Shown in pieces: positions 1,128-12,305 of a DNA stretch of 64,000 nucleotides. The notes under the pieces were generated by a model. It made no database searches and was not told where the DNA came from. It saw nothing but the letters and a program-made list of their open reading frames with translations. The stretch spans positions 1 to 64,000 of the forward strand of contig VGHE01000007.1 in assembly GCA_016868315.1 (NCBI GenBank), read 5' to 3'. The translations under genes were made by a program, and so were the position numbers. Origin of the DNA: Betaproteobacteria bacterium (GTDB lineage: Bacteria; Bdellovibrionota_B; Oligoflexia; Silvanigrellales; Silvanigrellaceae). Within the stretch, counting starts at the first letter, position 1. Each line of letters starts with the position of its first letter.

Positions 1128-1997
1128 TTATGGAGTGCATTTGAAGAGGCGACGTCTGGTTTGAGCTGCGTCGGTAAAGAATGACGAAACACATCGACTC
1201 TCTTCAGCAAAGCATCGTGTGCCAGCTATATTTTCAGACACCGGGCACTGTCCGATTCCTGCGATTTCAGCGAGTGGCTTATCACCCATCCAGCGGTAGA
1301 AGAATTGTCCTTCCACTCCTGAGGTCAGACATTTGAAAGTGCGCCGTCCACAATCAGAACCACTGCCGCTCGTGCAAAAACTAGACAAACATCTATCATT
1401 GACGACGCTACAGGCAGATCCGGCAATATCTGCGCCAAGTGCACACAGAGGCAATCTGGTTGCTGAAGTTGTGAAGCCATCTCCCATCGGAAACCAGACA
1501 AGTGAGTTTGTTTGGCCGGTAACGCACTTGAAGAGGCGCCTGCAACTTGGTGAAGAGCAGGTCGTCGTGAAGGTTGAGCGGCAGCGTGAATTCTCTCCCA
1601 TACACACCGTGCGCTGCTGAGTTCCTGGGGCACAATCGGGGATAGTGCCCAGCGATTCAATCCCAAAGTCACCCATCACGATCCAACGTGTACTCGGCGC
1701 GACGGGCATAACGGGAGGTGGTGGCGCAGCGGGCTCCGGTGGAGCCATAGGGTCGGGGCCCTCAACCACCGGAGCGCCAGCACCGCCTTCGGGTGCTCCT
1801 ACGCCTCCAGCTTCAATTGCTTCCGGGTTGACAACCGCGTCGGCTCCTCCGGCGCCTTCTGATTTGCGAGAATCTTTGGGCACTTTTGTCTTGGGGCTGC
1901 TCACTGTGACACCCGAGGGAATCGCAGCACTACATCCCGAAAGTGCAAACACAAAAATTGTGGGTAGCACGTATTTGAGAATAAGCCGTCTAAACAC
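1128..1997 (-). CDS. Lipoprotein with three cysteine-rich repeats
   Basis: A predicted lipoprotein of 289 residues. I chose the GTG at 1997 because GGAGG lies 5 bases upstream; an ATG at 2048 would add 17 residues before the signal peptide. The lipobox is LSGC, with the lipidated Cys at residue 22. A Pro/Ala/Gly-rich linker (about 30-102) leads to three modules at about 105-158, 168-223 and 236-287. Each starts near a Trp and MGD, contains spaced cysteines and RC.S.F, and ends in R..FKC. Modules 1 and 2 have six cysteines; module 3 has four. The repeats resemble extracellular disulfide modules, but I do not recognise the family. Function is unknown, probably cell-surface. Confidence 0.8.
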   Translation of the reverse strand: MFRRLILKYVLPTIFVFALSGCSAAIPSGVTVSSPKTKVPKDSRKSEGAGGADAVVNPEAIEAGGVGAPEGGAGAPVVEGPDPMAPPEPAAPPPPVMPVAPSTRWIVMGDFGIESLGTIPDCAPGTQQRTVCMGENSRCRSTFTTTCSSPSCRRLFKCVTGQTNSLVWFPMGDGFTTSATRLPLCALGADIAGSACSVVNDRCLSSFCTSGSGSDCGRRTFKCLTSGVEGQFFYRWMGDKPLAEIAGIGQCPVSENIAGTRCFAEESRCVSSFFTDAAQTRRRLFKCTP

Positions 1998-2163
1998 ACG
2001 AACCTCCGAAACTACACCCTTCACTTTTCGACGTCGGTTGACTAACAATTAATTTTTTTTTATAATGTTAATAAAAGGTAGATTTTCTAGACACTTGTGG
2101 ATCGATGCAATGTTCCTGTTTACGCGGTTGTGCGAGAGGAATGTTGTTTATGAATGTCTTCGG

Positions 2164-2206
2164 AGGAAGAAAAGAACGCCTCGGGAGAGTAATGCTGCTC
2201 TCCCGA
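2164..2206 (-). terminator. Probable intrinsic terminator after the split lipoprotein gene
   Basis: A perfect 9-bp stem (2181-2189 with 2198-2206, 8-base loop) reads on the minus strand into a T-rich stretch (CTTTTCTTCC) after a five-base gap. It sits about 30 bases past the stop at 2238. The gap before the T-tract makes it less than ideal. Confidence 0.5.
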
Positions 2207-2237
2207 AGCGGCTGTAGAAGCGAGCAACGGTGCTGGC

Positions 2238-2999
2238 TCAGTTGTAAAACGGACGGAAGTCGAAACGGTAGCTTACGCCGTTCATTTCGTAGGTCACTGC
2301 GATTGATTCTGCCTGGCAGCCGCTGCTGCTCGAATATGGGTTGCCCGGGAACGCCGCTCCGAACGAGGAAACATCGAGGCTCATGGGCAAAGAATCGGTT
2401 GAAAGCTGACCAAAATCTTGTCTCTTGGAACAAACTTGTGAGTAGTGCCCGATCTCAGCACTGATGTTAGAAACAACACGTTTAAACGTATCCAAATTTG
2501 TGAGTTTTTCGAAGCTGCCTGAAGTTGCGTTCAAGAGAGACCAATCGGTCACTTCGATGCGCGTGATTTTGTTAGCGCCATCGAGAACGGCCTTAACGCT
2601 TGGGATGTAGACCGTTGCCTTTTCTGAAGCATTGAGCGGGCTGGCTGCGGCCAAATCATAGCGTCCAATCTCGGTGTTGTTCATCGAGAGTGTCCACACT
2701 CCTGCCTCAAGTTTACCGTCGTAGCCACCGCCGCCCCAGTTAAAGTTGAGCGGACGCTCTCTGCCGTCTTGGCTGGCTTCTTTCTTGACGTAAAAGAGAC
2801 CGTCGTCAGAGGCGATTGACGCGCCGTTCATATCGCTGCCGCAATAATTTCCACTCTGCACTGCAGTGGTGTTGAGGTTGGTGACCTGATCGTACTCGCG
2901 ACACGCTGCAGCATCGTTCTCTTTGCAGAGTTTAAGTTTTTTGCCAGCAGGTGGCTTCAAAGACAATTTGTTTGAGGCACTCGCTCCGCCACAGAGTGA
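2238..2999 (-). pseudogene. C-terminal half of a lipoprotein, separated from its N-terminal half by an in-frame TAG
   Basis: This 253-codon frame continues without any shift from the TAG stop (3000-3002) that ends the preceding lipoprotein frame. Its composition is coding-like, with balanced polar residues, a WSLLN segment and four scattered cysteines. The first alternative start is a TTG at 2966 with no suitably spaced ribosome binding site, and the first ATG is about 60 codons in, so independent translation looks unlikely. I infer that 3743-2238 was one gene of about 501 codons interrupted by one nonsense codon. Readthrough or a sequencing error are the other possibilities. The family is not recognised. 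Confidence 0.6.
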
Positions 3000-3743
3000 C
3001 TACATGGTCAGGCCAGCCCACTTCGCAATGAAATAAAGACCATAGCCATTATACGTGAGATCTGTTGCAGCAGAAGAGGTGTTCTTGATCTTTTGAATAT
3101 TGCTTTTGAACACCATGTAGGGCTTCGTAAAGATGTAATCACCGTTGTCCTTGATGTTGGCTATTACGTTGATGAGCCCGCGCGCGGAGTCGTCTGTTTT
3201 GGCAATTTCCTTCATCTTAGAAACATCGAGCGAAAACGAGCTGGCAACATCGTCGGTGCGCTTATTGGAGGTATATTCCTTACCTGCCGTATCGCTGCTT
3301 AAAGTTCCCATATTAAGGCTTCCTGAGCCCTCTGCTGCGGGGATCTTCATGAGCGAGCCACTGTCGTCTTTGAGTGACAACACACCACGGATACCATCGA
3401 GGCGGTTGGCAGCGTTGGAGTCGACGGCAACAAGCAGGGTGTCGCCATTGTTCGTTTTAACACTTGCCGAGAATTTTCCATCGGCACCAATGGGAAAAGT
3501 TGCAAGCATCGACTTATCAAAGCTATAGATATTCTCGATGACTTTTGCCGGCAGAGCATAAATAACATTGGGAGCGGAGGCTGCAAATTCGAGGTTAGAT
3601 TGAATTGCAAGTTGACCCGAAACTGCAAAGGTCGGAGCAGAGTCACCTGAACCCGAAGATTTCTTCTTTCCGCAGGCGGAGTAACCACCCACAACAACTG
3701 TGAGAAGAGCATAGGCAACGATCTGTGAATTGCGTTTCAACAT
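3000..3743 (-). CDS. Lipoprotein, N-terminal half ending at an in-frame TAG
   Basis: A 247-residue frame with an ATG start preceded by GGGGA. The N-terminus is basic, followed by a hydrophobic stretch and a cysteine at residue 24 (YSAC, then KKKSS). This is a plausible though non-canonical lipobox, so the product is probably lipid-anchored. The rest is Ser/Ala/Asp-rich with beta-strand-like segments (FAVSGQL, DGKFSASV), suggesting an Ig-like or carboxypeptidase-regulatory-like fold, but no family is identified. The frame stops at TAG (3000-3002) and then continues open for 253 more codons. The product may therefore be a truncated version of a protein of about 501 residues. Confidence 0.65.
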   Translation of the reverse strand: MLKRNSQIVAYALLTVVVGGYSACGKKKSSGSGDSAPTFAVSGQLAIQSNLEFAASAPNVIYALPAKVIENIYSFDKSMLATFPIGADGKFSASVKTNNGDTLLVAVDSNAANRLDGIRGVLSLKDDSGSLMKIPAAEGSGSLNMGTLSSDTAGKEYTSNKRTDDVASSFSLDVSKMKEIAKTDDSARGLINVIANIKDNGDYIFTKPYMVFKSNIQKIKNTSSAATDLTYNGYGLYFIAKWAGLTM

Positions 3744-3905: not shown

Positions 3906-5306
3906 TCACAGGCTGCAGTTTGGGTTGGGTAGAGGTAGAGTTTCTGTTGCTAGGCAGTATTTCATCCATTGCCGAACCTTAGGGCTTGTTGCGACGCATT
4001 CAACTGTTGCCTGGTAGGGAGTTCCCCGCAAGGATTTACCTACAGAGAGCGAAACCGAGATTGTGTTTACGGCGCTGGTACGTGGAACATACACGGTTCC
4101 TGCCGCGACGAACTGACCTGGCTTGAGCCCTGGTAGGCGTGAGTGCAGAGAGACATTCTTTTTGATTTGCTCCTCGCGAAACTCAATGGTTGGAAAATAA
4201 TAAGAGCCTTGGGTGGGCATTTGTCCAGAATAGAACGCCGGTGCTGGATCAAGCTGAACGGAACTAAAATAGAAGGCATTGCCTGTTGTGCTATCTTTGA
4301 TCTCTCCTGCAAACCCGCTGATGAATGCTTGACCATCGTTGAGAACATTTCCGCGTTCGTCTTTCACTCTCCAGATGGAATCGAGAGCACCATTTTTTCC
4401 GCACTCGAACATCCGCACGTGTTTGTATTGAGTGTCATATTCAGCTGGGCGTGCTACCGGACGAAAGTCGCGCGCGGGCGGTGTTGGATTTGATGTGGTC
4501 GATGGATCGGGAATGGATTCAGACTTCTGAGATGCCATCGCACTGAGAATTTCTGTCGATGCAGCGATGCGCTGCGGCGCAGTTTTTGTTGCATAGAGTT
4601 TTTGATTTTGTGTCAGCGGCAGGAAAAGTTTGGCACGTGAACCACGGCTTGCATCGAATGCTGCAGAGCCATCCTTGCGCATGAATGTGTTCAAGCGTTC
4701 ACGAACTTTATCGTTGATTGCCTGACAGCTGAATTCATGAAATGCGCCACCCTCTATGCGCAGGTAATAGCGCGTGCTGTATTCACCGCCAATCACAAAT
4801 TTCGGAATGAAGAGTTGAGCCCCGGTGACATCGCTCGGGACAACTTTTTGTGAATTCAGTTTCACAAACGCCCACCCCGCATCTTGTTCGTCATAGGGGA
4901 AAAGCAGCGAGTAGGCTGAATAACTTCCAAGTGGAAATCGGTTGGGCTTGTTCACGGGTGGCACCGTGAAGCGTTCATCTTCCGAAGTGTTGATGCTTTG
5001 AAATTCAATCAGAGTGCCCTGAAGTGAGCGAAGGTTGCCGCTGAATCCTACAACAAACGGCGATATTGTTTGTCCAAGGGTTTTTCGCACCCGCCAGATC
5101 AAGTTCAGTGCACCGGTATTTCTGCCGTCGGAGTCAATGCATTTGGAGAATTCAGTAGCTTCAAATTGTTCTGTGTATTGCTTGTGGTTCAACGCGTGAG
5201 CGGGTGAGGTTTCCTCTGTCCTTTGGTTCGAAGGTGTTGACTGACACCCGAAAAGCATCAGGGTGAGGAGGGGCAGGATCTGGGGGTTCGCGAGAATCTC
5301 ACGCAT
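3906..5306 (-). CDS. Lipoprotein with an internally duplicated domain
   Basis: This 466-residue protein has a signal peptide ending in the lipobox LFGC (Cys21), so it is predicted to be lipid-anchored. Two copies of a domain of about 150 residues lie at roughly 53-205 and 299-451. Both contain GAL..IWRV, then GF.G and an aromatic strand, later a GSY segment, and finish with a C before a helix. A low-complexity Ser/Thr/Pro linker (about 262-280) joins them. I recognise no family and propose no function. A 35-bp gap separates it from the upstream barrel-like gene, so the two are probably co-transcribed. Confidence 0.8.
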   Translation of the reverse strand: MREILANPQILPLLTLMLFGCQSTPSNQRTEETSPAHALNHKQYTEQFEATEFSKCIDSDGRNTGALNLIWRVRKTLGQTISPFVVGFSGNLRSLQGTLIEFQSINTSEDERFTVPPVNKPNRFPLGSYSAYSLLFPYDEQDAGWAFVKLNSQKVVPSDVTGAQLFIPKFVIGGEYSTRYYLRIEGGAFHEFSCQAINDKVRERLNTFMRKDGSAAFDASRGSRAKLFLPLTQNQKLYATKTAPQRIAASTEILSAMASQKSESIPDPSTTSNPTPPARDFRPVARPAEYDTQYKHVRMFECGKNGALDSIWRVKDERGNVLNDGQAFISGFAGEIKDSTTGNAFYFSSVQLDPAPAFYSGQMPTQGSYYFPTIEFREEQIKKNVSLHSRLPGLKPGQFVAAGTVYVPRTSAVNTISVSLSVGKSLRGTPYQATVECVATSPKVRQWMKYCLATETLPLPNPNCSL

Positions 5307-5341
5307 GCAGCATCCTCTTCGTGTTCAATCAGGCGATGTTG

Positions 5342-6295
5342 TTAAAACACAACGGCAACTCGGATATCGGCAAGAGGCGCTGAGCCCATGCGTTGTTCGG
5401 TTTTTCTTCCAGTGACGTTGTTTTTGACCGTGGTGTTGCCTGCAAAAAATCCGAAAGATGGATCGAGTCTCAAGAAGCCGGTTGAAAAGCCTATGGGCAT
5501 GCCTACCGACCATCCAAGAATCATTTGTGCACCCACAAGTGTTATGTCTGCGTCGTCATCGTTGAAAAACTTTTTCGCATATCCTGACTCGCCGCTGAGT
5601 TCGAGACGGAGAAACAAAGACTGTCTTTGGGAAAATTTCCAGCGGGTGTGAATGTGGGAGGGTAGCCATCCGTCGATGCGCAGTTCAGGAGAGGGTTGCC
5701 ACGAGCCGCCAAGAAGTGGCATTAGATTCGAGCGTCTGGAGTTTGCGTTCCCCGCAGCACCAACGCCCAAGCCAACTTCGTCGTTGATTGACCACATCGT
5801 GAAGGTCTTGAGAACCGCAGATGTTTCGCTGGTTGTTCGGCCATTGGCTTCGAGCTCTTTGTAACCCACACCCGAGGAAAGAAAAAGCGAGTTTTCGTTG
5901 CTGAAGGCGTATTGCCCGGTAAGCTCCAGACTGAGTTGTGATGTTTGGATGGAGCGAAGCTGATTCTCGGCTAATATGTTCTGAACTGAACCTGAACCGG
6001 CACTCATTGTGAAGCCTGCAACGAAGTTATCGAGCAACGGATAAAGCCCGAGCAGATTCGCACTGGTTTTGCTGAGTCTGACCTCTGAGTCTTTTGGTTT
6101 GCGCAGATAGGTTTTATAACCCACCTGAACGATTTCTGCCGAAGGAGCTTGATCGAAGACCTTAGGTTTCTTCCATTGTTCGAGCTCAACCCAAGCCTTT
6201 GCCTCTGGGGATGCCAACAACGAGACGGAAGTGAAAAGAGATAAAAGCAAGGCAGTTAAATCAGTACGCATCATAGACCACAACTTTCTAGGCAT
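5342..6295 (-). CDS. Probable outer-membrane beta-barrel protein
   Basis: A 317-residue exported protein. After a short basic start (internal ATGs at residues 8 and 9 are alternatives) comes a hydrophobic segment and a likely signal-peptidase site after AKA, near residue 34. The mature part alternates hydrophobic and polar residues, with many short strands such as LSLELTGQYAF and SLFLRLELSGE. It ends in VAVVF, a terminal Phe typical of BAM-dependent outer-membrane proteins. It resembles generic DUF6268-like barrels, but that is a weak impression. It lies upstream of and close to the duplicated-domain lipoprotein gene, which suggests one cell-envelope operon. Confidence 0.7.
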   Translation of the reverse strand: MPRKLWSMMRTDLTALLLSLFTSVSLLASPEAKAWVELEQWKKPKVFDQAPSAEIVQVGYKTYLRKPKDSEVRLSKTSANLLGLYPLLDNFVAGFTMSAGSGSVQNILAENQLRSIQTSQLSLELTGQYAFSNENSLFLSSGVGYKELEANGRTTSETSAVLKTFTMWSINDEVGLGVGAAGNANSRRSNLMPLLGGSWQPSPELRIDGWLPSHIHTRWKFSQRQSLFLRLELSGESGYAKKFFNDDDADITLVGAQMILGWSVGMPIGFSTGFLRLDPSFGFFAGNTTVKNNVTGRKTEQRMGSAPLADIRVAVVF

Positions 6296-11168: not shown

Positions 11169-12305
11169 TCAGGAGTCTTGAGCCAGAATCTCGGAATAGA
11201 TGCTGAGCATGTGTTCACCGACCTGATACCAGCTAAAGCGCTGCACCTGGTTGTAGCCTTTTTCAATCAACTGAATGGCAACCTCGGGCTTCAGTGCGGT
11301 TTCAATTTTCTCGGCAATATCGAGCGGTGAGAAGGGGTCGACGAGCAGAGCTGCGTCGCCCACCACCTCGGGCAGACTCGAGGTCTGGCTCGTGACCACA
11401 GGTGTTCCGGCAGCCATCGCCTCCAGCGGTGGGAATCCGAATCCTTCATAGAAGGAGGGGTAAACCAGGGCTTTTGAGCTTCCAAACAGTTCCGCGAGCT
11501 CGCGGTCGGAGATGTAGCCCAAGAACTCAACGTCGTTGCCGACCTCGGCCGTGCTGATGCCTGCATCGGCGAACAACGGGTTCTCGCAGCCCACCACCGT
11601 GAGTCGGGTTTTGCATCCCGGGTTGCGTTGTTTGAAAATCGAAAAACCTTTGAGCAGACCCCTCAAGTTTTTCCGTGGCTCGAGCGAGCCCACAAAAATG
11701 ATGCGGTCGTCACGGGCATCGTAGCTCTTGCGGAACTGATGAAAAATGGGATCGACAGACCAATAGGTCAGGCGGATTTTTTCAATATTGAGCTTCAGCA
11801 GGCTGAGGATGTCGTTCTTCGAATAGTTTGAATTTGTGACAACCAGCGAGCTGTTGCGCGCCACCTGCGGAACCAACCAGCGGTAAATGGAGCGGAAGCT
11901 GAACGAGAACCACGCTGGCTGGACGAGAAAGCAGAGGTCGTGAATGTTGACGATGCTTTTCCCGCGGAAGGCGATGGGAGCAAGGTTGGCCGGACTGTGC
12001 AGGAGATCGACCTTGTACTTCTTCGCCAGGCGCGGCAACTCGACCTGTTCCCAATAATGATTACGGAGAACTGTGCGCTGTGAAAGCGGGCTCGTGACCA
12101 GTTGGACGTTGGGGCGTTGCCACTCGGGTGCGAAAATTTCGCTCTCGCCTGTGAACAGAACAAAATTGAACTGTGTGCCCTGATCGATCACGGTGCGGAA
12201 CAGCTGATAGGCCGAGCGCTGCACGCCTGTGCGTTGCGCCACCAGAAAGCGACCATTGAGTCCGATGGTCTTTCTGTTTGGATGGGCGAACTTCAATTCA
12301 CCCAT
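11169..12305 (-). CDS. GT4-family glycosyltransferase
   Basis: A 378-residue GT-B fold sugar transferase of the glycosyltransferase group 1 (GT4) family. The N-terminal half begins with IGLNGRFL and a TGVQR loop. The C-terminal nucleotide-sugar domain shows [10 protein letters not shown] (about 200-210), the acidic E..FG motif in [16 protein letters not shown], and [15 protein letters not shown]. It overlaps the end of the preceding glycosyltransferase gene by 8 bases, so the two are co-translated. The pair probably adds successive sugars to a surface polysaccharide or LPS. The acceptor cannot be read from the sequence, and no other polysaccharide genes are nearby. Confidence 0.9.

Follow-up and report, generated by a model that had tools for sequence, protein, structure and literature searches.

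A single in-frame TAG probably truncates a gene for a predicted surface lipoprotein of the Silvanigrellaceae type

In the window, the 64,000-nucleotide stretch of DNA that was analysed, a gene for a predicted exported lipoprotein of ∼ 500 residues is interrupted by one in-frame TAG. We think it probable that a nonsense mutation has recently struck what had been a Glu codon, cutting the protein to 247 residues and removing its C-terminal six-cysteine region. The ancestral frame is continuous, relatives have a sense codon at the site, the assembly holds no suppressor machinery and the part after the stop has changed faster. The stop is young. Single nonsense mutations are commonplace in bacteria; loss of function is the most likely outcome.

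The region 3743 to 2238 (reverse strand) is a single open frame of 501 codons whose sole interruption is the TAG at 3002–3000 (codon 248). Translation gives 247 residues, the stop and then 253 residues up to a TGA, confirming the layout proposed in a first-pass annotation of the sequence. The upstream half (3003–3743, reverse strand) has an ATG start, a putative signal peptide and 247 codons, and is predicted to encode a truncated lipoprotein. The downstream half (2238–2999, reverse strand) comprises 253 codons and the ancestral TGA, and is open and in frame but has no credible start. TTG codons occur 12 and 14 codons past the stop, neither with a spaced Shine–Dalgarno motif, and the earliest ATG lies 57 codons in, so the earlier judgement that this half lacks a good start holds. 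Translated alone, it would be without a signal peptide. Both halves bear the coding signature of the contig: the log-odds are 0.22 for the upstream and 0.18 for the downstream half, with 0.16 for typical genes. Directly after the ancestral stop lies a terminator-like hairpin (2177–2210, reverse strand; 13 pairs and a T-rich tail), a consensus match only, whose position is consistent with transcription of the whole 3743–2238 unit as a single transcript. In 184 kb of the contig we found eight other same-frame gene pairs. In seven of them the second open reading frame has a start that could be used, and the eighth (at 11829) looks, on inspection, like chance shadow reading frames; the split gene is thus the sole convincing pair that combines a startless second half with a frame continuous in homologues.

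Orthologues align with both halves as one frame. The two same-genus orthologues, which are 62–76% identical to the upstream half, are uninterrupted: that of G002 has 504 aa, and that of G001, of 507 aa, is spread over two contigs whose ends overlap by 141 identical bases that include the site. Both carry GAA (Glu) opposite the TAG. Seven more distant homologues of the same class (∼ 520–570 aa) are open through the site with Asp or Ala in its place, and all nine continue past it to a conserved C-terminal SYRxxFR-like motif. The residue opposite position 248, to which the first-pass annotation had pointed as informative, is therefore encoded by a sense codon in every homologue examined, and TAG is found at this position in none of the nine. 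That annotation had also named two observations that would speak against a split gene, namely homologues ending near residue 247 and a separate conserved start downstream; neither was found among the nine. Two separate genes were rejected on the continuity of the homologues together with the missing start of the second half. A scan of the genome-contig collection with the downstream half gave no match, and one with the genus alignment of the upstream half returned the same two relatives only. In G001 a contig break falls within the orthologue (L003:1-141 and the end of L014; C324 and C200), and the overlap spans the site of the window's TAG. This resembles an assembly-graph break, perhaps caused by strain variation there.

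The homologues have Glu, Asp or Ala at this position, and both same-genus species use GAA there, so Gln or Trp is not supported as the ancestral residue. The proposal of a single-base change from CAG or TGG is thus supported as far as a single nonsense event in a once-continuous lipoprotein gene is concerned, and not supported with respect to the source codon. The simplest path to TAG would start from a Glu codon and take one or two substitutions.

Lineage-specific changes were polarised with G002 as outgroup, comparing the window lineage with its sister. Before the stop, the window lineage has 13 residue changes of its own and the sister 19; after the stop the counts are 33 and 15. Fisher's test (p = 0.02) and a permutation of sites (p = 0.005) both support this shift of changes to the post-stop part. 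In a codon model the nonsynonymous rate of the window branch is raised 2.5-fold in the post-stop part only (likelihood ratio test, p = 0.0004); that part evolved ∼ 2.5 times as fast as in the sister, the pre-stop part did not. The test covers three taxa, and as synonymous sites are saturated, the absolute rates of this model are unreliable and the contrast alone is used. A Trp kept by nearly all homologues is Leu in the window copy. These comparisons of three taxa point to a modest relaxation of constraint after the stop in the window lineage. Part of the acceleration may be older than the stop. All indels of the window lineage are multiples of three, which indicates that most of the divergence accrued under coding constraint. 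The 253 downstream codons contain no second stop or frameshift. The ∼ 20 excess missense changes lead one to expect ∼ 1 extra stop, with a probability of 0.35 of seeing none, so its absence is compatible with decay but not probative.

The lack of acceleration before the stop (13 vs 19 unique changes) would also suit a functional, lineage-specific short form, in which the 247-residue lipoprotein does its own work and the downstream part is a remnant. A low-confidence structural model places the stop near the transition from helices to a C-terminal β-rich part. However, that model is poor (pLDDT 48, too weak for structure searching) and no relative is as short, and we give this proposal hardly any weight.

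It is less far-fetched, though still unlikely, that a miscalled base, or a minority strain variant that entered the consensus, accounts for the TAG and that the gene is in reality whole. Apart from the TAG the downstream half is undamaged, its indels stay in frame and all six cysteines common to the same-genus orthologues are still present. The gene was seen as one copy in one assembly (3.24 Mb, 27 contigs), and since the related genomes are metagenome assemblies, that of the window may be one too. Yet the 184 kb of contig contain no other nonsense-split gene, so lone stops within genes are rare here and the assembly does not look rich in errors. The site has no homopolymer or simple repeat, and a rate rise limited to the post-stop part is not expected from a mere base-call error. 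Slippage- or repeat-based phase variation was rejected because the site lacks a repeat.

The genome reads TAG as an ordinary stop. RF1 is present, TAG terminates 10 of the 108 contig reading frames of at least 300 codons, and none of the 42 tRNAs typed has a CUA anticodon. With the assembly ∼ 95% complete, it is unlikely, though possible, that a suppressor tRNA was missed. Searches for PylS gave sub-threshold matches only, as in most control genomes. Genome-wide reassignment of TAG, doubted already in the first-pass annotation, was rejected on these data, as were pyrrolysine and a suppressor tRNA. RNA structure after the TAG is not above chance (z = −0.14), and a readthrough-promoting structure was rejected on this ground.

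The stop might also be tolerated if a near-cognate tRNA read the TAG at low frequency, which would yield mostly short and a little full-length lipoprotein and let selection on the C-terminus persist. The retained downstream frame and an average constraint that is still strong fit such a scheme. Belinky et al. (2021; PMC7918605) report that readthrough of in-frame stops is common in bacterial genes and that such stops, with a dN/dS of less than 1, are widespread. The window gene resembles those cases in having a stop within an otherwise constrained gene, but its stop occurs in one genome only. Against low-level readthrough stand the lack of a suppressor tRNA, of a PylS match above the cut-off and of notable RNA structure, a stop conserved in no relative and the weaker post-stop constraint in the window lineage; we consider it improbable. 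Lower still we rate a version in which the TAG is fixed in the species and is partly read by ordinary tRNAs, giving short and long lipoprotein in a set ratio; this is very doubtful.

We therefore return to a recent nonsense mutation. On this account the TAG would have arisen as a single event at the ancestral Glu codon in the window lineage, and RF1 would terminate translation there. The product would be a 247-residue lipoprotein, probably membrane-anchored and lacking the cysteine-containing C-terminal part, which would not be made in useful amounts. The gene would then be inactive or cut down to its N-terminal part. Like bacterial pseudogenes with a single nonsense mutation, it has one in-frame stop absent from orthologues and weaker post-stop constraint in the affected lineage; it differs from them in being very young, with no further stop or frameshift. 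Further inactivating lesions are not present, and a recent event does not require them.

The protein is an uncharacterised, predicted surface lipoprotein of the Silvanigrellaceae type with ∼ 500 residues. The family (∼ 500–570 residues) extends over several families of the same class (G001, G002, G004, G020, G021, G028, G045, G049 and G051). Searches of Pfam and NCBIfam with the protein gave no model over the cut-off. The putative signal peptide has a candidate lipobox with Cys24 as the likely lipid-bearing residue; this cysteine is invariant in the genus and aligned with Cys in the distant homologues, but the −3 residue is atypical (YSAC). The window copy shares with the family the cysteine of the putative signal peptide, an N-terminal SGQLA-like motif and the C-terminal NWGGGG/NFGTGG and SYRxxFR motifs, and differs in the interruption, which it alone has.

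The split gene is flanked by a 466-residue protein (3906–5306, reverse strand) and an APH-fold kinase (106–1122, Pfam). Both have counterparts in place in G001, which supports orthology with that genome. Together with a 317-aa protein, the 466-residue one makes up a pair next to the split gene (3906–6295, reverse strand), neither member of which matches Pfam; the G001 counterpart is that of the 466-residue protein. Between kinase and split gene, 1128–2048 (reverse strand) holds a separate Cys-rich lipoprotein-like reading frame of up to 306 residues with no Pfam match. The corresponding spot of G001 holds a different reading frame of 138 residues, so this spot is variable.

The analysis also outlines an unnamed lipoprotein family; its general weight is otherwise small. 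The split is best read as a lesion confined to this lineage, rather than as recoding or as a pair of genes, and the two reading frames should therefore be annotated as one interrupted gene.
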